A stretch of 64,000 bases of DNA, from contig NZ_FOBW01000011.1 in the NCBI RefSeq assembly GCF_900109925.1, forward strand, positions 1-64,000, in the 5' to 3' direction. Shown here piece by piece: positions 3,038-45,326 of the stretch (positions within the stretch are counted from its first letter, which is position 1; each line of letters begins with the position of its first letter). The notes under the pieces are model-generated. The model made no database searches. It worked only from the letters and a program-made list of their open reading frames with translations, and had not been told where the DNA came from. The translations under genes were made by a program, and so were the position numbers. Source of the DNA: Mesobacillus persicus (GTDB lineage Bacteria > Bacillota > Bacilli > Bacillales > Cytobacillaceae).

Positions 3038-3768
3038 TATCCGTCGCCTCCTACACCAGTTTCGACAGGCTCCATATACCTAATTCTAATTGTATCCTGA
3101 TATCCAGGAATCATAATGTCCTCTTCTGGTTTCTCCAAGACTACCCTTAAGTTATCAATAAAGAAATCCTCCACAACGGTTGAGATCTCCATTCGCTTGT
3201 ACAGCTTATCCGCTTCCTCAGCATTCTTAGTGATAACTTTTATCTGAATAGGAAGGCGGTTAAGTGAATGACCATCAATCTTGGTTACTGTCCCGATATC
3301 GCGGATAACCGTAGTATTAATCACCCTTTGTTCATCAACTGATAGATGAATGGCTCCATACATATTTAATTCATTAATAAGTCGTTGAAGTAAGCTAGGT
3401 GAAACACGACTCATGGGAACTTCCTGCCCTAATTCATTTACAATCGGCTGAAGTGTAAGAATGATGCCCGGTCCAGTTACTTCGGTTAAACCTGCCTCAC
3501 CTTTCAATTCTTCTAGCGTTTCTTTTAGAAGTTGTTCTTTACTCTGCTCACGCTCATTCTCATATTTTGTGAGCTTATCCTCAATCGTTCGAATTTCATG
3601 TAGCAGTTCTGATTGCAGTTCTTTTTCCCCCATTAAATCATTACGGAGTTCCCACGTATCCCGGGTATCACGGACTTCAGGTTCACTTACAGTTTGAAAC
3701 TGAATGGCAACCATTAACCCGATGATTGAAGCAGTAACGGTGAAATAAACATTCTTTGGGCGCCCCAT
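3037..3768 (-). CDS. ylxX: DUF881 family protein YlxX
   Basis: Membrane-anchored DUF881 protein of unknown function, one of two consecutive paralogues. It has an N-terminal transmembrane segment (about 8-25), then a coiled-coil stretch rich in Glu, Lys and Leu (about 35-85), then the globular DUF881 domain with the recognisable GAIHLSVDEQRVI stretch. I place the start at ATG 3768 (MGRPKNVYF), six bases after an AGGTG box. A GTG three codons upstream overlaps that box and is less likely. It shares one base with sbp and lies 55 bp after ylxW. Confidence 0.85.
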   Translation of the reverse strand: MGRPKNVYFTVTASIIGLMVAIQFQTVSEPEVRDTRDTWELRNDLMGEKELQSELLHEIRTIEDKLTKYENEREQSKEQLLKETLEELKGEAGLTEVTGPGIILTLQPIVNELGQEVPMSRVSPSLLQRLINELNMYGAIHLSVDEQRVINTTVIRDIGTVTKIDGHSLNRLPIQIKVITKNAEEADKLYKRMEISTVVEDFFIDNLRVVLEKPEEDIMIPGYQDTIRIRYMEPVETGVGGDG

Positions 3769-3823
3769 TCCTCTCACCTAACCTTAAACACTTTTTCAAA
3801 TAACTGTTTTACAACCGATGACA

Positions 3824-4528
3824 TCACTTCTTGCCAACAACTGGATCTAAAGTAATGTCACTTTGTTCTTGCAGAGAAAAGATAATTTGGTCATTAACCA
3901 ATTGATCCTTAATACCTCCAGTAATGTTTAGGGCAGCAGAAAGGACTTTCGGTTCTCCAATTGCGGTGATTTCAAACGGCGCAGGGTGTTGATAACCGTC
4001 AACAGTAATAACAGGACCATCACAAAGTATATAAGAATTATGTGACAATCGCTGACCATTAATGGCAATAGCGGATGCCCCAGAAATATATAATTCATTG
4101 ATTACTTTATAGACATGGTGTTCATGTACAAGGTAATTGTTGATGTTGGGTTCATCAGGATTGTATTCCCCGTCAGCAAGAGTTACCTTAACCCCAGCCC
4201 CTTTTACCTTTACCTTCCCTAAGAACATTCTATATTTCTCAGCATCCTCTGCTAGGTTAAAATAAACTTGGGCTTCATTCGCCAACTGAGTTTCGAAATC
4301 CCTAACCATTTCCTGCCTTTTATTTAATTCCTCTTGTAAATCACGGTTTTTTTCTCTTTGTTCATTCAATTCATTCCGGAGACTTAAATTTTTCTCCCAT
4401 TGACTGTCCGTAATTTGCCTACTGCTTTTCCCACTTTCGGTTAGACGATAAGAGTAAGCAATCATAAATCCTAAAATTAAACATACAATGGATAAGACAA
4501 CACGTTTAGTCTTGAGTTTCTTTTTCAA
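3824..4528 (-). CDS. ylxW: DUF881 family protein YlxW
   Basis: Second DUF881 paralogue, about 234 residues. It has a membrane anchor (about 9-27), a long Gln/Glu/Arg-rich coiled coil (about 40-95) and the DUF881 domain (GASAIAINGQRL). The frame is open further upstream, but an ATG start would overlap divIB by 74 bp and add a lysine/leucine-rich tail without a ribosome site. TTG 4528 (LKKKLKTKR) lies six bases after AAGAGG, giving a 23-bp overlap with the divIB end. The start is inferred and the family is clear. Function is unknown; context is division. Confidence 0.83.
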   Translation of the reverse strand: MKKKLKTKRVVLSIVCLILGFMIAYSYRLTESGKSSRQITDSQWEKNLSLRNELNEQREKNRDLQEELNKRQEMVRDFETQLANEAQVYFNLAEDAEKYRMFLGKVKVKGAGVKVTLADGEYNPDEPNINNYLVHEHHVYKVINELYISGASAIAINGQRLSHNSYILCDGPVITVDGYQHPAPFEITAIGEPKVLSAALNITGGIKDQLVNDQIIFSLQEQSDITLDPVVGKK

Positions 4529-5297
4529 GTTCAACCTCTTCAGCTTCCTCTGCTTCAAACGCTTTAAAATACGAACCAACTTCTATGTCGATAACCCCTT
4601 TTTGCATGGGGTCGAGCTGGCTGATTATCGATGGGTAATGAATCATCTTCTCACTAAAGTTTCTCAACGACGCATTCACTTCAAACCCATTATTCATATA
4701 AAGATAAATACGATATGAATCTGTTTCAGATGGGGAATGGTGAATTTCAGAAATGGTACTAATGATTTCTTCCGGTAACTGTTTAAGAGAGGCAATCACT
4801 TCATCTAAAATATCCCCCTCCTCAAACGAAAATAGGATTGGGGCATGGACAGGAATGCCCTGCGTTAAACTGTTTTCCAGCACCCTTCCATTACTGAGAA
4901 CTGGGAAAAACTCACTTTCTTTTGACAAGTAAGCTAGTTTTTCAAATTCCTCTAGTTCAATATTGATGGTGTTAGGAAGGCGAAGAGATACTTTGGCATG
5001 CTCAACCTCAGGAAGACTTTCTAAGCGTGCTTCAGCTTCTTCCTTATTTATTTTCCAGATATTTGTCTCATCCGTAATACCACTACTCTGTTGTATTATT
5101 TCAGTAGCAATCGAATCGTTTCCGCTAACACTAATCTTTTGGACTTTGCTCAGCGGTGACTGGAAATAAATAATGCAAAGAATCATGATAAAAAAAAGCA
5201 AAAGCATCAGAGTTAATCGTCTGTTTGCCTTTTTTTTCCTCTGCTGTTTCAATTTCGGTATCCGATCTTCAATCGAAACAATTTTCCCGTTCTCCAT
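4506..5297 (-). CDS. divIB: Cell division protein DivIB (FtsQ)
   Basis: Bitopic divisome protein that works with DivIC and FtsL to control septal peptidoglycan synthesis. The basic cytoplasmic N-terminus (1-28) is followed by one transmembrane helix (about 29-46). A POTRA domain begins at KVQKISVSGND, then the FtsQ-type beta domain and an acidic Glu/Ala-rich tail. The 263-residue length is typical. It starts at ATG after an AGAGGTGATAAGG stretch. It follows murB after a 195-bp gap containing a hairpin, so it probably also has its own promoter. Its 3' end overlaps ylxW. Confidence 0.95.
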   Translation of the reverse strand: MENGKIVSIEDRIPKLKQQRKKKANRRLTLMLLLFFIMILCIIYFQSPLSKVQKISVSGNDSIATEIIQQSSGITDETNIWKINKEEAEARLESLPEVEHAKVSLRLPNTINIELEEFEKLAYLSKESEFFPVLSNGRVLENSLTQGIPVHAPILFSFEEGDILDEVIASLKQLPEEIISTISEIHHSPSETDSYRIYLYMNNGFEVNASLRNFSEKMIHYPSIISQLDPMQKGVIDIEVGSYFKAFEAEEAEEVELEKETQD

Positions 5298-11684: not shown

Positions 11685-13154
11685 CTATTGTTCCTTTCTC
11701 TGCTTTATTGCTTTTAATGCAATTTCTCTGTCATCAAAATCAAAAATTTTATTTCCAATTTGTTGATAAGTCTCATGTCCTTTTCCTGCAATCAAGATGA
11801 CGTCGCCATCTTCGGCCTGCTCTACAGCAAATTTTATCGCTTCTTCTCGATCGGAGATTTTTACGTAAGTTTTCCCTTTCACGCCTTCCTCCATATCCTC
11901 TAATATGCGCTCAGGGTCTTCACTCCGAGGGTTATCGGACGTAAAGATAGGATTCGACGCATAGTCACATGCAATTTTTGCCATTAGTGGCCGTTTTGTA
12001 CGATCGCGATCCCCACCACAACCAACAACTACAAAAATACGTTTCTCGGCAAACTGCCGTACGGTCATAAGCACATTCTCAAGACTATCCGGTGTATGAG
12101 CATAATCCACGATGACTGAGAAATCCTGTCCCCCATCCACTGGCTCAAATCGACCTGAAACACCCTTTACACTTTCTATGGAAGCAATAATGTCCTCAAG
12201 TGGTAATCCTGAAACGAAGGCAGCACCAATACTTGCTAATACATTATAAATACTAAATTTCCCAATAAGTTGAATTTGTACCTTATGAATTCCTAGAGGG
12301 CTTATCAGATCAAACGATGTTCCGCCTGCCGACATCTGAATATTTTTCGCCTGAAGGTCAGCAGGGTGATCAATTCCATAGGTAAAAGGAATGGCAGCAG
12401 TACTTCTTTCGTACTCCTTACTTGTGGAATCGTCAGCATTAAGCACCGCATATTTAGGTTTGCTTAGGTTAAAGCTGTTACCCAATTGAGAAAACAGTAA
12501 TCCTTTAGCCTTCTTATACTCTTCCATCGTTTTATGATAATCAAGATGATCCTGAGAAAGGTTTGTAAAGACCGCGACATCGTAATCGGTCCCATGAACT
12601 CTTCCATGGACTAGGGCATGGGAGGATACCTCCATGACTGTCGTCTCTACTTTTTCATCGACCATCTGTTTAAAGGTCTTTTGCAAAGTAAGACTTTCCG
12701 GAGTTGTATTTTTAACATCGTATTTGGTATCGGCAATTTTGGTATACATCGTACCAATCAAACCTGTTTTTTGACCAGCATCGGCAAAGATTTTCTCGAT
12801 TAGATGACTAGTTGTTGTTTTGCCATTGGTACCCGTTATCCCAATTAGGTGCAGTTTATGACTTGGCTGCTCATAAAAGGCATCAGCAAGAATAGCCATT
12901 GACCTAATCGTATCTTTAACGACAATAACAGGGACTTTGAGGTTCAACTCTCTCTCTGCAAGGACAGCGACCGCTCCCTTTTCGACGGCTGATTGTGCAA
13001 AATCGTGACCGTCAACCGTATAGCCTTTAATACAAATAAATAAGCTCCCTTGCTTCACATTTCTGTTGTCATTTTCAATTGACGTAATATCAGGATTTTC
13101 TCCTTTAAAGTCCATAAAAGAACCTAAGAAGTTTAGTAGCTTATGTAGTCTCAT
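11685..13154 (-). CDS. murE: UDP-MurNAc-tripeptide synthetase MurE (meso-DAP adding)
   Basis: Mur ligase that adds the third stem-peptide residue. The specificity motif SDNPRSED indicates meso-diaminopimelate rather than lysine (established motif rule). The P-loop [14 protein letters not shown] and the carbamylated-lysine region [12 protein letters not shown] are visible. I place the start at ATG 13154 ([11 protein letters not shown]), behind GGAGAGGA. The frame opens nine codons earlier but without a ribosome site. The 5' leader contains a strong hairpin with a competing pairing (see 13205-13249), so expression may be attenuated. Confidence 0.97.
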
Positions 13155-38278: not shown

Positions 38279-39487
38279 ATGAAAGCTGTCGGTGTAATTG
38301 TAGAATATAATCCTTTCCATAATGGCCATAAATTCCATCTTACTCAAGCAAAAGAACATGCGAATGCTGATATTGTCATTGCTGTCATGAGCGGAAATTT
38401 TCTGCAAAGGGGAGAACCAGCACTTGTGTCTAAGTGGGCTAGAACGGAAATGGCGTTGAAAGGAGGCGCTGATTTAGTCTTTGAAATCCCCTACCAGTTT
38501 GCAACTCAGAACGCAGATCTATTTGCAAGCGGTGCAGTCTCACTATTGGGTGCTGCAAAATGCCAATTCATCTGTTTTGGCAGTGAGGATGGAGACATTG
38601 AATCATTCTTAGAAACCCATCAATTTCTAAAAGATCATGATTTTGAATTCCAACAAAAGGTCAAAGAATATATTGGTCATGGGGTTAGCTATCCAAAAGC
38701 CCTTTCCCTAAGCTTCAATGATCTGTCTCCAAATAAAAAGGTGCTTGACTTAACCAAACCCAACAACATCCTTGGCATTCAATATGTTACCGCAATACAC
38801 GATCAAAAGCTACCTATTAAACCTATCACAATTACTAGAAAAAATGCCAATTATCACGATCAGCATTTCGCGTCTGAATCCATTGCGAGTGCAACTAGCA
38901 TTCGGAAATCCCTTTTTACACAAAATGGGGAACTGTCAGGGCTACAATCCTATCTTCCTCCGACAACTTATGATTTACTCCTTAAATATAAAAAAGAATA
39001 CGGGCAATTCCATTCTTGGGAGGACTATTGGGCATTATTAAAATATAAATTACTCCAAAGTAGTCCACAGGAATTGAGGGATATCCATGAAGTTGAAGAA
39101 GGTCTTGAGAATAGGCTATTGCAAGCAGCCTTATTAGCGGAAACCTTCCAAGAATTCATGGAACAAATTAAGACAAAGAGGTATACTTGGACAAGGCTTC
39201 AACGGGTCTGTCTCCACATTTTAATGAATGTAAAAAAGGTGGAAATGCCCAAAAATAAGACAGCCAACTATTTAAGACTTCTTGGTATGTCCGGAAGCGG
39301 GAGAGAATATTTAAATAAAGAAAAAAAAAATTTCGGTCTCCCCCTTGTTTCAAAATCTTCTGCTAGTAAAACGGAGCTCGACCTAGATATTCGTTCATCT
39401 AGATTATATGCATTGGGCGCAACTGGCGAAAATCAAAGTCGCTTATTAAAGCTAGAATTTACGCAGCCGCCCATTCAAGTGAAATAA
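38279..39487 (+). CDS. tmcAL: tRNA(Met) cytidine acetate ligase TmcAL
   Basis: ATP-dependent ligase that uses acetate to form N4-acetylcytidine at the wobble position of elongator tRNA-Met. The nucleotidyltransferase HIGH-like motif is VEYNPFHNGHKFHL (about 8-21). VMSGNFLQRGEPALVSKWAR and later SATSIRKSLF blocks are family-typical. The 402 residues match B. subtilis YlbM. It starts at ATG seven bases after AGGTGA, about 110 nt downstream of its promoter. The leader can fold a CGAAAATTT/AAATTTCG hairpin. Confidence 0.95.
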   Translation: MKAVGVIVEYNPFHNGHKFHLTQAKEHANADIVIAVMSGNFLQRGEPALVSKWARTEMALKGGADLVFEIPYQFATQNADLFASGAVSLLGAAKCQFICFGSEDGDIESFLETHQFLKDHDFEFQQKVKEYIGHGVSYPKALSLSFNDLSPNKKVLDLTKPNNILGIQYVTAIHDQKLPIKPITITRKNANYHDQHFASESIASATSIRKSLFTQNGELSGLQSYLPPTTYDLLLKYKKEYGQFHSWEDYWALLKYKLLQSSPQELRDIHEVEEGLENRLLQAALLAETFQEFMEQIKTKRYTWTRLQRVCLHILMNVKKVEMPKNKTANYLRLLGMSGSGREYLNKEKKNFGLPLVSKSSASKTELDLDIRSSRLYALGATGENQSRLLKLEFTQPPIQVK

Positions 39488-39575: not shown

Positions 39576-39604
39576 TTCTTCAGGAGTTTGGTTCTAACTG
39601 TGGG

Positions 39605-39855
39605 AATTTGCTCTTATCGGTTAGGCGCTAAGGTTAAAACACTTTGAATCTGATAAATAGAGGGAAGAATTCCCCTTAATTAGCAATTGGCATTGAAAAT
39701 GGTTTAAATAGAGGGAAGAATTCCCCTTATTTGACTCGAATAACATGAAGATAGGTGTTTTTGTTTTGTATAGAGGGAAAATTTCCCTCTATTTCCCTCA
39801 AAACGAGCTCTAATCTGCATTTAACGGTAAAATCTCCCCTTATTTATTAGCTGAT
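39605..39855. repeat. Palindromic array A (inverted copy of array B)
   Basis: Four imperfect palindromes of the type AGAGGGAA-AATTCCCCT are centred near 39668, 39719, 39781 and 39832, with intervals of 51, 62 and 51 bp. The third, AGGGAAAATTTCCCT, is nearly perfect. The spacers are alignable, as reverse complement, with those of array B at 44.7-44.9 kb. The element sits between convergent tmcAL and sepM and contains no gene. Confidence 0.8.
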
Positions 39856-39914
39856 TACTAAATTTAGGACAGGACATGTTCTTTTTTGAAAACTGAGATG
39901 AGCTAGAAGAGCCT

Positions 39915-40928
39915 TTATTTAAGTTGCTCGAGGTAATTTACGGCTTCCTCAAATGTATCAATCGGAACTATTTTCATATTTGTATTAATGTCTTTTGCAG
40001 TCCTTACAGCAGCCTCATAATTAGAGCCATTTGCTCCTTCTTCATTAGGTGCTAGAAAGATATCAGCCCCGGCTTTATCTGCTGCTACTACTTTTTTTTC
40101 AATTCCACCTATTCGGCCAACTGTTCCATCTGAAGACATGGTCCCTGTTCCGGCAATTTCATACCCGTTTGTTAAATCTGTTTCAATTAACTGGTTGTAA
40201 ATTTCAAGGGAGAACATTAATCCTGCCGATGGTCCACCAATTTCATCTGTTCGAACATTTACTTCTGGGGTCACCTTAATCTCTTTGTCATCAACAAGAG
40301 AGATTCCAATTCCCACTTTTTCACTTGTCTCATTAAATTGTTTTAAAGGAAGGGTGATGTCTTGATTGTCATCCTTGTTTTGAACAGTCAGTGTGACGGT
40401 TTCTCCCAGCTTCTTTTTGCCCACATATTCTATAAACTCTGTCGAAGAGGAGAATGGTTTGCCGTCAACTTGGACAATCCGATCACCGACCATTAACTTC
40501 CCGTCTGCTGGCATTTCAGGGATGACCTGCAGAACATACACTCCATTATAGTCATACTCAATAGGTAAGCCCGCCTTTTTATAAGCCACCTCAATCGCAT
40601 TTATTTTAGAACTGTCCATCATATGTAGCTGCCTAGCAGTGTATTCTTCATCCGTTTCATTCTCTGCCCTAATCTCCTCTAGGGGATGAATTTCTTGATA
40701 GTCACTGAGCTTGGCCATTAGGTAAGAGTAGATATTGGCTCGCCCCATCCTAATCGTGGTAAGCATGAAGCTCCCTTCTTCCTCAAACCCTCCCTCCACT
40801 TCAATGATTGGTTCAAGTTCCTTGGCCATTCCTGGTTTAGAAACATAATAAGGCAAATAATAAAATGAACTAGCAAACAGGAGGACAGCAAGTATAAGTG
40901 TTAGTCGAACTGATCCCATTTTTTTCAT
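39915..40928 (-). CDS. ylbL: SepM-family PDZ/Lon-type serine protease (YlbL)
   Basis: Membrane-anchored serine protease of about 337 residues. It has an N-terminal transmembrane helix (about 5-25) and a central PDZ domain (VLQVIPEMPADGKLMVGDR). The C-terminal Lon-like domain shows the Ser/Lys dyad: GGPSAGLMFSL for the serine and VGRIGGIEKKVVAADKAGAD for the lysine. The start is ATG 40928, overlapping the ylbK stop by 4 bp (ATGA). In B. subtilis YlbL is implicated in division control after DNA damage; in streptococci SepM processes a peptide pheromone. The target here is unknown. Confidence 0.92.
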   Translation of the reverse strand: MKKMGSVRLTLILAVLLFASSFYYLPYYVSKPGMAKELEPIIEVEGGFEEEGSFMLTTIRMGRANIYSYLMAKLSDYQEIHPLEEIRAENETDEEYTARQLHMMDSSKINAIEVAYKKAGLPIEYDYNGVYVLQVIPEMPADGKLMVGDRIVQVDGKPFSSSTEFIEYVGKKKLGETVTLTVQNKDDNQDITLPLKQFNETSEKVGIGISLVDDKEIKVTPEVNVRTDEIGGPSAGLMFSLEIYNQLIETDLTNGYEIAGTGTMSSDGTVGRIGGIEKKVVAADKAGADIFLAPNEEGANGSNYEAAVRTAKDINTNMKIVPIDTFEEAVNYLEQLK

Positions 40929-41716
40929 GATGTAGGGCGCTCCTTCCATTGCTCGATAAACTGATGGATTTTCCCGATATTCTTCCTTGTTTCTTCCTCA
41001 CCAATGGCAATAATCTCATCTATATTTTTAAAGGCTTTAGAACTATACATTTCCGTCCGAGGTCTTAACATAATATCAGATGCGATTTCCCGATTTGAAA
41101 CAAGCTCCATTTGCATAATGTCTATACTTTGCATAATGACATCGAAAATCGAGGAAATCTCAGCATTCCTATTTACATGTGATACATCGACAGCAATGAT
41201 AATATCCGCTCCCATCTCCTTTGCTACAGAAACGGGAATCCTATCAATAACCCCTCCATCAATCAGGAGGCGACCATTTAGTTTTTCAGGCGTGAAAATC
41301 CCCGGGATGGAAATACTTGCTCTCACCGCATCCGCTATCGGTCCCTCTTTGAACACTACTTTCTCTCCAGAAACCAGGTCCGTCGTTACAACAGCAGTAG
41401 GTATATCAAGATCTTGGATTTCTTTTCCATGAGTGAAAATCCGAATTAAGTCCTTCACTCTGTTTCCAGCTATAAATCCCATTTTGGGTACGGTAAAGTC
41501 CAAGTAATATTTTCTTTTAAAAGCCTTTGAAAGCTTATAAAGCCTATCTATATCCAATCCGGCTCCATAAAAACATCCTACCATTGCACCCATGCTGCTC
41601 CCAGCCACCATATCAATCGGGATTCCCTCTTCCCGTAGCACTTTAATGACACCTAAGTGTGCAAATCCACGAGCCCCACCAGAGCCCAGGGCCAAACCAA
41701 TTTTTGGACGCTGCAA
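40925..41716 (-). CDS. ylbK: Patatin-like phospholipase YlbK
   Basis: Patatin-fold serine hydrolase of 263 residues. Oxyanion motif GSGGARGFAHLGV (about 12-24), nucleophile motif GSSMGA (about 39-44) and catalytic Asp in LIDGGVIDRIP are all present, giving a complete Ser-Asp dyad. It starts at TTG (MQRPKIGLALG) behind GGGGGAA. It is coupled to ylbL downstream, as in B. subtilis. The physiological lipid substrate is unknown. Confidence 0.93.
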   Translation of the reverse strand: MQRPKIGLALGSGGARGFAHLGVIKVLREEGIPIDMVAGSSMGAMVGCFYGAGLDIDRLYKLSKAFKRKYYLDFTVPKMGFIAGNRVKDLIRIFTHGKEIQDLDIPTAVVTTDLVSGEKVVFKEGPIADAVRASISIPGIFTPEKLNGRLLIDGGVIDRIPVSVAKEMGADIIIAVDVSHVNRNAEISSIFDVIMQSIDIMQMELVSNREIASDIMLRPRTEMYSSKAFKNIDEIIAIGEEETRKNIGKIHQFIEQWKERPTS

Positions 41717-41960
41717 GAAAAATTCCCCCTTTAATCCTTCAATAAACTTTTGGTCTATTTTGCATACCTGTGAGCATATTGATTTTATATGAGGACAAGG
41801 TGTATGTAGCTAAAACCACTCTATTCTTTATATATGGTTCAGATGCAAAGTGCAGTACCTGTTGACCATATATAAATCCACACTAGTCTGATGAATATTT
41901 CTTATTTTATCATTGTTTCATCATGTTTCACAGCAGATGACCTGCGGAGGGAGGATATAC

Positions 41961-43187
41961 GTGCTTAAATCAAAAATGAAAACGGCAGTACTTGCTAGTT
42001 CTGTTACGGTGATGGCTGTCTCAATGATTATTTTTCCGCAGGAATCATTAGACGCGTCCATTCGGGGATTAAATATGTGGTGGGAGATTGTTTTTCCTTC
42101 CTTGCTACCCTTCTTCATTGTTTCGGAATTGTTAATTGGCTTTGGTGTTGTTAAATTTATTGGTGTTCTTTTAGAGCCCCTAATGAGACCGCTTTTTCGT
42201 GTACCTGGAGTTGGCGGGTTTGTTTGGGCTATGAGTATGGCCTCAGGCACACCATCCGGTGCCAAACTGACGGCCACCTTACGGCAAGATGGACAATTAA
42301 CAAAATTAGAAGCGGAAAGACTAGTTTCCTTTACCAATTCTTCCAATCCAATTTTCATCTTTGGAGCGGTTGCCGTGGGATTTTTTCACAACCCACAGCT
42401 AGGCGTTATCCTTGCACTCGCGCACTATCTTGGAATTATAACAGTAGGCTTGGTGATGAGGTTTCATGGAAAAGAAGAGAATCATAAGGTAGGTGGTAAG
42501 AAGAAAAAGCTCTCCATCCGCGATGCGTTCGTCGCCCTACATAAAACACGCATTAAAGACGAGCGTCCAATTGGACAGTTGCTTGGGGATGCTGTTATGT
42601 CATCCATTCAGACCCTGCTGATGATTGGCGGCTTCATTATTATCTTTTCTGTAATTAATAAATTGTTATACCTATTAGGTGCAACCGCGTTTTTTGCAGG
42701 CTTTATTGCTTACCTTTTAGAGTTGGTCGGTTTAAATGACATGTTAAGCATGGCCTTTATATCAGGCCTTTTTGAAATAACCATGGGAAGTCAGATGGCC
42801 AGTCAGGTTCAAGAGGCGACCTTGTTCCAACAAACCATCATCACTAGCTTTTTTCTTGGTTTTAGTGGCTTTAGTATTCAAGCACAGGTAGCTAGCCTTC
42901 TTGCAAAAACAGATGTACGCTTTCAGCCTTTCTTTATTTCAAGGATTCTTCATGGCTTTTTTGGAGCCATATACGCTGTCCTTTTATGGAAACCAATTTA
43001 TTTGCGTTTTCTAGAAGATGAGCAATCATCCAATGCGATGCCAGTTATGAATAGACTCTTTGAGGAAGGAACGAAAATGGCAGATTTTCACCTTACCCTT
43101 TCGCAAATTGGACCACTTGTAACTATTATGTCTCTTATCATCTATATCCTACTTTATTATAAAAGGACACAAAACGTACTCAAATAA
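41961..43187 (+). CDS. ylbJ: Sporulation integral membrane protein YlbJ
   Basis: Polytopic membrane protein required for efficient spore formation (B. subtilis YlbJ, mother-cell expressed). The 408 residues contain nucleoside-recognition/Gate domains: FPSLLPFFIVSELLIGFGVV and MASGTPSGAKLTATLRQDG are typical. About eight hydrophobic segments are present. The start is GTG 41961, behind GGAGGGAGG; upstream ATG candidates have no ribosome site. It is opposite in strand to its neighbours, as in B. subtilis. Confidence 0.92.
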   Translation: MLKSKMKTAVLASSVTVMAVSMIIFPQESLDASIRGLNMWWEIVFPSLLPFFIVSELLIGFGVVKFIGVLLEPLMRPLFRVPGVGGFVWAMSMASGTPSGAKLTATLRQDGQLTKLEAERLVSFTNSSNPIFIFGAVAVGFFHNPQLGVILALAHYLGIITVGLVMRFHGKEENHKVGGKKKKLSIRDAFVALHKTRIKDERPIGQLLGDAVMSSIQTLLMIGGFIIIFSVINKLLYLLGATAFFAGFIAYLLELVGLNDMLSMAFISGLFEITMGSQMASQVQEATLFQQTIITSFFLGFSGFSIQAQVASLLAKTDVRFQPFFISRILHGFFGAIYAVLLWKPIYLRFLEDEQSSNAMPVMNRLFEEGTKMADFHLTLSQIGPLVTIMSLIIYILLYYKRTQNVLK

Positions 43188-43214
43188 AAAGCGAGCCTTC
43201 TCGGCTCGCTTTTC
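43188..43214 (+). terminator. Terminator after ylbJ
   Basis: Stem AAAGCGAGCC/GGCTCGCTTT with a 5-nt loop, overlapping the ylbJ end. Confidence 0.85.
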
Positions 43215-43223
43215 ACCTTATTT

Positions 43224-43382
43224 ATTGGCTCTTTGCTCAAAATTGTTGCTTTTTTGTAGATGAATAGGACTTTTATCTTTAATATAAGAGAAAAGAACTT
43301 GCAAAAATTACTATTACGTACAAAATAGCTTATCTTGCGTTAATTTCGGCTTTAGGGACTTAACATTCTATACGAAATTAGC

Positions 43383-43384
<2 letters not shown>
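43224..43384. repeat. AT-rich dispersed repeat, copy 3
   Basis: It starts TTGGCTCTTTGCTC ... TTGTTGCTTTT, then AAAGAACTTGCAAAAATTA, AATAGCTTATCTTGCGTTAA, TCGGCTTTAGGGACTTAA, and ends ACGAAATTAGCC at the coaD stop. It fills the convergent ylbJ-coaD gap. Confidence 0.68.
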
Positions 43385-43865
<481 letters not shown>

Positions 43866-44438
43866 TTAAATTTCCCCCTCTTCGCCCTTTTTATATGTAA
43901 ATACTGTAACTCCAATAATACCATATTCTTCATGTCTTATTTGCTGATATCTACCTATTTTTGGAGGAAGTTTTGTTTCAGAGCCATGTTCACAAACAAT
44001 CACACCATTTTCTTTAAGAAGGCTAGCATCATCCATCATTTCCATCAGCTTAATTAATTGCTGTTTTTTATATGGAGGATCCAAAAAGATATAATCAAAA
44101 CTTAAATCTCGTTTTTGTACAGCTTTTAACGCTCTAGACGCTTCATTTCGATAAACCTCTGCTTGTTCATCTAGATTACAGAAACGTAGATTCTCATTAA
44201 TTGTCTGGACTGCTTTCCGGTCTAAATCTACAAAGATAACTCTTTCAAGACCTCGACTTAGCCCCTCAATGCCTAGACCTCCACTTCCTGCAAACAAGTC
44301 GAGACCTAGTCCACCATTAAAATATGGACCAATCATATTAAAAATCGCTTCTTTTACCTTATCAGTCGTTGGCCTAGTTGAGTTTCCGGGAACCGCTTTC
44401 AACCCCCGCCCCTTTAAGGTACCTGATACAACCCTCAT
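43866..44438 (-). CDS. rsmD: 16S rRNA (guanine966-N2)-methyltransferase RsmD
   Basis: SAM-dependent methyltransferase of 16S rRNA G966. It shows RVVSGTLKGRGLKAVPG at the N-terminus, the SAM motif LDLFAGSGGLGIEGLSRG, and the catalytic motif IFLDPPYKK. The 190 residues start at ATG 44438 after AAAGGGG. It is coupled to coaD. The csfG-like RNA begins about 110 bp upstream on the opposite strand. Confidence 0.97.
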   Translation of the reverse strand: MRVVSGTLKGRGLKAVPGNSTRPTTDKVKEAIFNMIGPYFNGGLGLDLFAGSGGLGIEGLSRGLERVIFVDLDRKAVQTINENLRFCNLDEQAEVYRNEASRALKAVQKRDLSFDYIFLDPPYKKQQLIKLMEMMDDASLLKENGVIVCEHGSETKLPPKIGRYQQIRHEEYGIIGVTVFTYKKGEEGEI

Positions 44439-44513
44439 CACATAAACCCCTTTAACCTCTAAATCACTTCTACCTTATCCTACCACATGAAAAAAAATAT
44501 AATCAAAAAATGT

Positions 44514-44542
44514 GTATAAGCTGGACCATTATGGAAATAATG
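44514..44542 (+). promoter_or_regulatory. Sigma-F-type promoter of the small RNA
   Basis: GTATA (44514-44518), 14-nt spacer, GGAAATAATG (44533-44542). The sigma-F consensus is GYATA then GGNNANAMTR; every specified position matches. The -35 also reads TGTATA, compatible with sigma-G. Confidence 0.7.
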
Positions 44543-44547
44543 TAAGT

Positions 44548-44699
44548 AACAACATCAATTCGAGGATGTTGTTGCCAACCGCGGAGAAGACTTACGTTTC
44601 CCCATAAGTTCTTCCTCCGGTTTCTCCTCTCCCTTTGCCTTCTGTCCCAATGATGGGATATAGAAGGACCCTGCAGAAATGCAGGGTTTTCTTTTTTTT
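44548..44699 (+). ncRNA. csfG: CsfG-like sporulation small RNA
   Basis: About 150 nt with no convincing reading frame and four consecutive hairpins. H1 is AACAACATC/GATGTTGTT (44548-44573). H2 is a long imperfect stem with a CGTTTCCCCA loop (about 44577-44622). H3 is CCTTCT/AGAAGG enclosing TCCC/GGGA (44638-44667). The last is a terminator. A single-stranded pyrimidine tract (TTTCTCCTCTCCCTTTG) between H2 and H3 and the C-rich loop could pair with Shine-Dalgarno sequences. In B. subtilis the forespore RNA CsfG, controlled by sigma-F and sigma-G, is located between ylbG and ylbH(rsmD) as I recall. Position and promoter type agree. Identity by sequence was not checked. Confidence 0.72.
44668..44699 (+). 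terminator. Terminator of the csfG-like RNA
   Basis: Perfect 8-bp stem ACCCTGCA/TGCAGGGT with a GAAA tetraloop and TTTCTTTTTTTT tail. Confidence 0.93.
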
Positions 44700-44945
44700 A
44701 TAGGCTTTATAGAATAAGCGGAGATTTTCCGGCTAAATACAGAATGGAGCTCATTTCTAGGTAAATAAGGGGAAATTCTCCGGTTATGCAAAGCAAAACA
44801 CCATATTTTCATGTTTTTCGAGTCAATAAGCGGAATTTCTCCGTCTATTTGAGCTATTTTTTATAAAAATTACTAATTAAGCGGAATTCTTCCGCTAATA
44901 TTCAGACCGGGTCCTTAACCTAATCCCCTAACCAATAAGAGCCTT
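44700..44945. repeat. Palindromic array B
   Basis: Four palindromes of type AAGCGGAA-TTCTTCCGCT are centred near 44725, 44776, 44837 and 44888 (intervals 51, 61, 51 bp). The fourth is perfect (AGCGGAATTCTTCCGCT). Spacers such as TTCATGTTTTTCGAGTCAAT and AATGGAGCTCATTT align with the reverse complement of array A. It lies between the csfG terminator and the ylbG terminator, that is, between convergent transcripts. Confidence 0.8.
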
Positions 44946-45050: not shown

Positions 45051-45326
45051 TTATATTCCCATTTTATAGTCATATTCCTTTGCTTTATCCGGTGCCGAGT
45101 TTTCAAATTCCATTTTTAAGTATGGCTTATAGGATGGCTCTACTTTTTTTACAAAAGAGTATGAACTAATCTTCTGAATGAGAGCATCCGTGTCTTCTAA
45201 ATCACAGTACAAGACTACATACTTAAGCTTTCTCGACACATAATGCACATTGCCAAACCTTCTTAGCATTTTAGCTTGCTTTAATGAGTAAAGCCAAACT
45301 ATGATTCCTTGTCTTTGACCTATCAT
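45051..45326 (-). CDS. ylbG: DUF2129 family protein YlbG
   Basis: Small cytoplasmic protein of 91 residues, UPF0298/DUF2129. It has the conserved stretches [26 protein letters not shown] and [15 protein letters not shown]. Function is unknown. It starts at ATG after GAAGGGGAAAG. It sits between ylbF and the csfG-like RNA. The upstream gap is occupied by GC-rich repeat copy 3. Confidence 0.9.

Follow-up and report, generated by a model that had tools for sequence, protein, structure and literature searches.

Spaced palindrome arrays of Mesobacillus persicus as probable non-autonomous copies of a mobile unit encoding a nuclease-like protein

Introduction

Two groups of four palindromes, here called arrays A and B, lie in inverted orientation in a 64,000-nucleotide stretch of Mesobacillus persicus DNA (RefSeq assembly GCF_900109925.1, contig NZ_FOBW01000011.1, positions 1 to 64,000; hereafter the window), and their nearly identical spacing raises the question of what such arrays are and what holds their geometry. 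A sequence-only reading of the window placed the palindrome centres at 39668, 39719, 39781 and 39832 (array A) and at 44725, 44776, 44837 and 44888 (array B), exactly where we find them. It described the two as reverse-complement relatives, and they indeed align in two stretches, of 128 nt (76% identity) and 69 nt (80%); the spacing that it gave, 51/62/51 bp in A and 51/61/51 bp in B, also holds. Its interpretation, a counterpart of the repetitive extragenic palindromic (REP) and bacterial interspersed mosaic element (BIME) clusters of enterobacteria, is only partly supported. The further copies, their common spacing and an enrichment between convergent genes were borne out; the siting of both arrays between convergent genes, a REP/BIME kinship with the usual partner and a stabilisation of RNA ends were not, and the nuclease-like gene linked to the arrays had been missed. 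We propose that A and B probably derive, as non-autonomous and dispersed copies, from a mobile unit that encodes a nuclease-like protein next to its own putative binding platform, which the protein would bind and cut and which would be copied during repair.

Arrays A and B and Their Dispersed Family

Array A (39656..39844, minus strand; profile score 183.6 bits at 39645-39848, minus) and array B (44713..44900, plus strand; 183.9 bits at 44709-44904, plus) are each made up of four 25-bp palindromes, all imperfect, that follow the form AATAAGCGGA-N5-TCCGCTTATT. Those of A, numbered along the minus strand, are found at 39820-39844 (P1), 39769-39793 (P2), 39707-39731 (P3) and 39656-39680 (P4), and those of B at 44713-44737 (P1), 44764-44788 (P2), 44825-44849 (P3) and 44876-44900 (P4). 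Sites 1 and 2 face sites 3 and 4, which gives the array a central dyad of its own that is visible in the asymmetric cores. When the window was searched for four GGAN5TCC sites at intervals of 51±1, 60-63 and 51±1 bp with up to 2 mismatches, only A and B were found, and none appeared in 20 Markov-1 copies of the window.

The source genome carries at least 46 copies of this ~190-bp array family (40 plus six more from a second query); 36 of the 40 keep four sites and 22 are spaced at exactly 51/61/51. The palindrome pattern has 226 matches in that genome and 8 in the control; each of the 50 places listed falls, by eye, within an array, and none is a solitary palindrome. Sixty-one copies from the source genome and related genomes, whose pairwise identity is often only 70-80%, were aligned after exclusion of L003, L029, L033 and L039 of the source genome and of L151 as damaged or split (loci are cited by L and genomes by G numbers). 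Exactly 51/61/51 is found in 30 of these 61 copies, and 56 stay within 1 bp at each interval. At L217 (3244-5068) an array is split by a gene (open reading frame 3550-4773, minus strand), whose product we take to resemble an IS110-type transposase.

Of 193 genomes of the taxonomic family, 111 match the array profile; they represent 17 of its 25 genera, and nearly all of the matches listed span 186-191 bp. Presence within the genus is patchy: G002 has none, G003 has one weak match and the other genomes have 9 or more. Of 397 genomes of the order, 36 contain four GGAN5TCC sites at offsets 0/51/112/163 when up to one mismatch is tolerated and all spacers are ignored; the reversed-pattern control yields 0. 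Some of these matches have, by eye, clearly different spacers, as does L045 (Bacillus sp. FJAT-27251; 11759-11950), the only array-bearing locus of 80 named SepM loci; such arrays are termed type II and those of the A/B kind type I. Since the geometry is found with different spacers, the spacing itself is conserved.

A Nuclease-Like Gene Linked to the Arrays

In two genomes an open reading frame was seen to abut the array. This gene codes for a protein of ~220 residues, and an array lies 3' of it, in the opposite orientation, in 48 of 48 fetched loci (30 best-match loci, the copy of the source genome and 17 more, four of which are broken gene copies). In 47 of them the array starts 2-12 bp past the last aligned codon; in L271 it is displaced by ~180 bp, and nearly six copies of a repeat of about 35 bp (1303-1520) separate gene and array. 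The gene of L257 is followed by an irregular, longer array. A second array, in the same orientation and 75-97% identical, is located upstream of the gene in 12 of 31 loci. In the source genome (G000) the linked gene is at C33:49392-50051, beside an array copy (L002; G000:C33:50043-50244) that is 93% identical to array B. Inspection by eye of loci L234-L263 shows what looks like a conserved promoter, TTGACA...TATTAAACT, together with a long leader, some 250-450 bp before the gene start; sequence resembling a hairpin lies further upstream.

Gene and array also co-occur. Among the 193 family genomes, 63 have a protein match, and three of these with only a distant homologue were set aside (G018 and G020, which have arrays, and G019, which has none); arrays were found in 60 of 60 genomes with the gene and in 51 of 133 without it (Fisher 2.8e-19). 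Genomes that have the gene mostly carry one copy of it, and a median pairwise dN/dS (ratio of nonsynonymous to synonymous substitution rates) of 0.12 at a median dS of 0.53 (903 pairs, 43 proteins) indicates purifying selection.

The N-terminal to central part of the protein has a sub-threshold resemblance to DUF559, a domain of the restriction-endonuclease-fold or PD-(D/E)XK type, and residues about 150-215 have weak matches to winged-helix-type regions. D69 and E82 are invariant across 31 linked proteins and homologues. In a comparison for coevolution, L268 provided the only protein paired with a G-class array, and the residues unique to this single protein are mostly in its C-terminal extension.

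A Second Subfamily with Another Motif

Homologues at 33-43% identity provide a further comparison. The GGAN5TCC pattern fails behind their genes, and four GGAN7TCC sites at 50-51/61-63/50-51 bp are found 3' of the gene in 8 of 12 loci, beginning within 13-126 bp behind it. The second motif has a 13-bp core, GGAC...ATCC or GGAA...TGTCC, and its four-site pattern was absent from all 984 control windows (420 bp each) and from all 12 reversed sequences; these controls test for chance and are not an independent prediction, because the core was read off the same loci. In 2 of the 12 loci a four-site array of this motif also lies upstream. The best evidence that the protein may read the array is that two diverged proteins each come with a motif of their own, in the same geometry and behind the gene.

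Behind the genes of L286, L289 and L290 the region is repeated in tandem three to four times, with periods of 193, 244 and 193 bp, each unit corresponding to about one four-site array. On a plasmid of Paenibacillus cellulosilyticus (L264, 2328-4379), tandem repeats of 51 bp, in 8.5 and 13.6 copies, enclose a 43% homologue; they have a palindromic core and occupy a region without annotated features.

Remnants of the Unit beside A and B

If A and B are derived from a gene-plus-array unit, parts of that unit may still be recognised next to them. On the P4 side of array A, 39597..39655 (plus strand) matches the 3' end of the nuclease-like gene with a score of 26 that 0 of 100 shuffles reach, the alignment extending 48 bp past the profile edge. 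The corresponding match of array B, at 44901..44942 (minus strand), scores 31 (0 of 100 shuffles) and extends 38 bp past the edge. On the P1 side of A, 39845..39914 (minus strand) matches the tail of the unit with a score of 27 (0 of 100 shuffles), the end being inexact as the alignment continues to 39931, inside the neighbouring gene; no tail was recognisable on the P1 side of B (33 of 101). With 12 randomly drawn gene ends out of 41 for comparison, a gene 3'-end match above all 100 shuffles was found on the P4 side of 15 of the 40 source-genome arrays, namely the gene-adjacent copy and 14 others including A and B. Because they keep these remnants, A and B are best regarded as non-autonomous derivatives of the gene-plus-array unit. 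Copying anchored at the tail was also considered: when one copy was compared with 12 sister genomes, 31 of the 39 hits listed reached the tail end, and the gene-side ends varied over 150 bp. We dropped this idea, as the limits of the query copy set both ends and the source-genome arrays show no such rule.

Spread between Lineages

The protein of the source genome is 80-91% identical to its homologues, and this identity is unrelated to that of CoaD (rho -0.05, 41 genomes). The closest homologue belongs to another family (G341) and is 91% identical, with CoaD at 71%, and the proteins of the same genus share 83-84% with CoaD at 86-93% (e.g., 83% and 93% in G001). These identities suggest that the gene-plus-array unit moves between lineages. 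Phage and plasmid records contained no array and no protein match except the 43% homologue on the Paenibacillus cellulosilyticus plasmid, and viral contigs, searched for the protein only and not for arrays, had no match to it.

The same data bear on the view that the protein is no longer a nuclease and instead coats the arrays as an architectural protein that shapes the nucleoid, the host keeping the arrays for that use. The very constant geometry across families, the mostly single gene copy per genome and the purifying selection would all suit such a protein, and for 52-nt repeats of Bacillus and Paenibacillus it has been suggested that a constant repeat size is needed for a protein polymerising on DNA (PMC8161180). 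We nevertheless regard it as unlikely. Array presence is patchy inside one genus, and arrays A and B were undetected at the corresponding sites of L042, the nearest of 80 named relatives, where the gaps are too diverged for exact junctions. The lack of relation between protein and CoaD identities also argues against it, as does the siting of the arrays, for which no convincing pattern of a fixed chromosomal region was seen by eye among the matches listed for three complete genomes.

Carriers and Terminal Repeats

Type II arrays (L214-L233; e.g., L223 1911-2189) have the same four-site geometry with different spacers, in units of mostly 268-280 bp. The units end in 26-bp terminal repeats (GGCTCTGTTAT...), which were not seen for L045, and 6-8 of 8 flanking bases match in 7 of 18 copies (L220b, L222, L224, L226, L227, L228 and L231, of which L226 and L227 share the same flanks); in the other 11 copies 1-5 of the 8 bases agree, and the ends often match poorly. 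One type II unit is absent at the corresponding place in the sister genome G151, where the junction is diverged. Type II arrays thus have both hallmarks of miniature inverted-repeat transposable elements (MITEs), terminal inverted repeats and target duplication. Neither was seen at A and B. Some type I arrays are enclosed by another terminal repeat (TAACGGGTTC...), in units of about 550-830 bp (L030, L032, L036, L037, L133 and L126), and in L242 (2535-3051) the same repeats surround a unit without an array. An element with TAACGGGTTC terminal repeats as the general carrier is ruled out, as it encloses a subset of type I copies only. Since arrays are found both in type II units and between TAACGGGTTC repeats, the array module travels in several vehicles.

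These carriers are what would be expected if the arrays were passive sequence inside ordinary MITEs, mobilised through their terminal inverted repeats by transposases. We consider this quite improbable as a general explanation: it is the array and not the ends that the different units have in common, passive DNA is not expected to keep 51/61/51 across different spacers, and the position of the array behind the gene in every fetched locus does not follow from it.

Palindrome Pairing and Genomic Siting

REP, BIME and REPIN (REP doublet) sequences form many short intergenic palindromic units with few in divergent gaps and with non-autonomous copies, and the associated RAYT protein (REP-associated tyrosine transposase, TnpA-REP), a Y1 HUH transposase, is mostly encoded by one linked gene per genome. 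The present arrays are likewise short, palindromic, intergenic, multicopy, rare in divergent gaps and in part non-autonomous. They differ in having a DUF559-like partner with a winged-helix-like end instead of a Y1 HUH transposase, and in forming a fixed four-site array of double-stranded DNA, whereas REP units are 20-40-bp palindromes that stand singly or as inverted pairs; none of the palindromes listed here is solitary.

REPIN-like elements moved by a Y1 RAYT transposase were considered since Y1 transposases are present in each of 7 genomes of the genus. This is scarcely credible, and the RAYT/Y1 partner was rejected: such palindromes are found at 0 of 22 Y1 loci (~3.3 kb around each, 7 genomes), which also speaks against the REP/BIME kinship with its usual partner, and Y1 transposases are also present in G002 and G003, the genomes with no or one weak array.

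Siting relative to genes was classified for 65 loci, 14 of which were unclassifiable. The remaining 51 comprise 25 convergent, 24 tandem and 2 divergent gaps, against 11, 79 and 15 in a background of 105 gaps, in line with the convergent siting on which the REP/BIME comparison had been built. Weighted by gap length, the convergent enrichment (p 9e-6) and the divergent depletion (p 6e-6) remain, both p values being optimistic because some loci are near-duplicates and not all are independent. Array A conforms, being flanked by the convergent genes for a PRK13670 nucleotidyltransferase (38279-39487, plus) and a SepM-family protease (39915-40949, minus). Among named genomes, this SepM protein has its nearest counterpart in Mesobacillus maritimus (80%). 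Array B, also held to be convergent, has co-directional genes on either side, rsmD (43866-44441, minus) and a PRK02886-family gene (45051-45326, minus). As context outside the element, a ylbH leader RNA (RF00516; 44696-44579, minus; 106.7 bits) adjoins array B, which is immediately upstream on its P1 side. Rfam has nothing above the gathering score at the arrays themselves, the ylbH leader adjoining and rRNA lying in other loci; a weak, sub-threshold match to sraA (E 0.3) falls on the array of L036.

A REP/BIME counterpart acting through gyrase, or arrays that stabilise or terminate RNA 3' ends, would be consistent with this siting and with palindromes that can fold and have pair counts slightly above those of shuffles. 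However, G faces G at position 6 of P1 in 50 of the 61 aligned copies and at position 7 of P2 in 32 of them. A C/G switch at position 7 follows the array as a whole more than the single palindromes, most strongly linking the right half of P1 with that of P3. Because the palindromes retain such fixed mismatches, pairing is not the conserved feature; the sites and their spacing are. The conserved, specific mismatches count against the stabilisation of RNA ends that had been suggested, and the RNA hairpin as the conserved feature is weakened despite the slight excess of pairs. Nor is there a clear strand preference in tandem gaps, with 14 arrays on the same strand and 10 on the opposite one, and the shortage of arrays at promoters is uninformative since it is expected of any insertion. 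With the spacing maintained across different spacers and the usual REP partner absent, we consider this explanation very improbable; a protein platform at the DNA level fits better than an RNA hairpin.

Discussion

The unit that we propose would consist of the promoter-like sequence and leader noted by eye, the gene of the ~220-residue protein, a few bp, the ~190-bp array and a tail of ~50-60 bp. The protein is predicted to combine an N-terminal DUF559-like domain of the restriction-endonuclease fold with a C-terminal winged-helix-like part. The array may serve as a double-stranded DNA platform of four dimer-type sites, sites 1 and 2 facing sites 3 and 4 about the central dyad at 51/61/51 bp, to which the protein of the adjacent gene most likely binds via its winged helix. 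It may then assemble a symmetric complex in which the nuclease domains are placed on or beside the array, and breaks at the array would be repaired in such a way that the array is copied along with more or less of the unit next to it. The arrays are real and their geometry is under constraint, and they appear to be the offspring of a gene-plus-array unit apparently moving between species.

Several observations weigh against this proposal. With regard to the protein, the Pfam match to DUF559 (PF04480; residues 68-142) stays below threshold (19.5 and 18.7 against a cut-off of 20.6 bits, E about 1e-3); no match to solved nuclease structures was found, seven weak matches (E 0.06 and worse) being confined to the C-terminal part; and by eye the catalytic motif is a variant, ExD in 23 array-I proteins and ExQ in 8 distant ones, instead of ExK. 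With regard to linkage, the 51 array-bearing genomes without the gene have to be accounted for, and 4 of the 12 distant-homologue loci fail the four-site pattern; by eye, L284 and L289 appear to be degenerate or variant cases, and no array is seen in L287. Among the 40 source-genome arrays, 25 have no gene remnant at the level used, the tail is recognisable in 16 only (in A, not in B), and the rule that copies are anchored at the tail and truncated on the gene side fails, as B has a gene remnant without a tail. The palindromes also pair more than shuffles do (78.6 vs. 76.4% paired; covariation 0.098 vs. 0.072), an excess that related sequences can produce without structure. Finally, some arrays have been moved by other machinery, since type II arrays belong to an element that has terminal repeats and 8-bp duplications of its own, and for type I arrays neither a clean empty site nor a target duplication could be found. 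At one type I site compared between sister genomes (L343 3479-3617 against L223 13901-14290), the array unit is present in G152, whereas G154 carries another insertion and a remnant of the gene but no array.

Among known systems, TnsA of Tn7 has a restriction-endonuclease-fold domain followed by a winged helix, and the ends of this transposon contain several protein sites. By description the likeness is to the restriction-endonuclease-fold-like domain, the winged-helix-like end and the several sites of the present unit. No transposase gene was noticed as a regular neighbour of the array, no search having been aimed at TnsB.

The GC clusters of yeast mitochondria are linked to endonuclease genes. 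They are described as palindromic, non-autonomous mobile DNA subject to merging, shuffling and horizontal transfer (PMC4478555); the arrays resemble them in being palindromic, non-autonomous and mobile, and differ from them in that GC clusters are short single palindromes of a eukaryotic organelle. The repeats bcr1-bcr18, too, are dispersed and mobile-like, and they are described as 100-400 bp long, restricted to the Bacillus cereus group and possibly linked to a TTTAT-associated mechanism, bcr1 averaging 39 per strain (PMC6542083); the described restriction and mechanism set them apart from the present arrays.

Closer in dimensions are the 52-nt tandem repeats of Bacillus and Paenibacillus, which are reported to be constant in length and variable in sequence, to hold short motifs that are often accompanied by their reverse within one repeat, and to be conserved in part only from strain to strain (Subirana and Messeguer, 2021; PMC8161180). 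The authors find no evidence of a specifically interacting protein and suggest that a protein as yet unknown or small RNAs may be involved (PMC8161180). Both kinds of repeat combine a constant period of ~51-52 bp, here the outer intervals of 51 bp, with a variable sequence, whereas the present arrays have four sites only, inverted pair order and, in most copies, a 61-bp centre. As the consensus sequences in Table 1 of that paper do not resemble the present motifs (PMC8161180), the identity of the two is a hypothesis, and the direct link is limited to the 51-bp repeats flanking the homologue in Paenibacillus cellulosilyticus.

The gene-plus-array pairing suggests a protein partner for this puzzling type of repeat. 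More broadly, and with somewhat less than even confidence, we suggest that there may be a class of selfish two-part systems in Bacillota, in which lineages of DUF559-like winged-helix nucleases each have their own array directly behind the gene, either four sites at 51/61/51 or a period of 51-52 bp, spread by cutting and copying, move between families and are the missing partner of the 51-52-bp repeats of Bacillus and Paenibacillus. In the titles and abstract openings of open-licence PubMed Central, we found no description of a comparable pairing of gene and array.

An unexplained repeat thus becomes a testable gene-plus-site system, with a candidate protein, a site, an exact geometry and natural variants of both protein and site. 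How protein complexes measure DNA could also be studied on these arrays as a natural experiment, their spacing being fixed over different spacers. If the proposal is true, a restriction-endonuclease-fold protein acting on a symmetric platform of eight half-sites would represent a new route for the spread of short repeats through bacterial genomes, beside HUH transposases and ordinary transposons.

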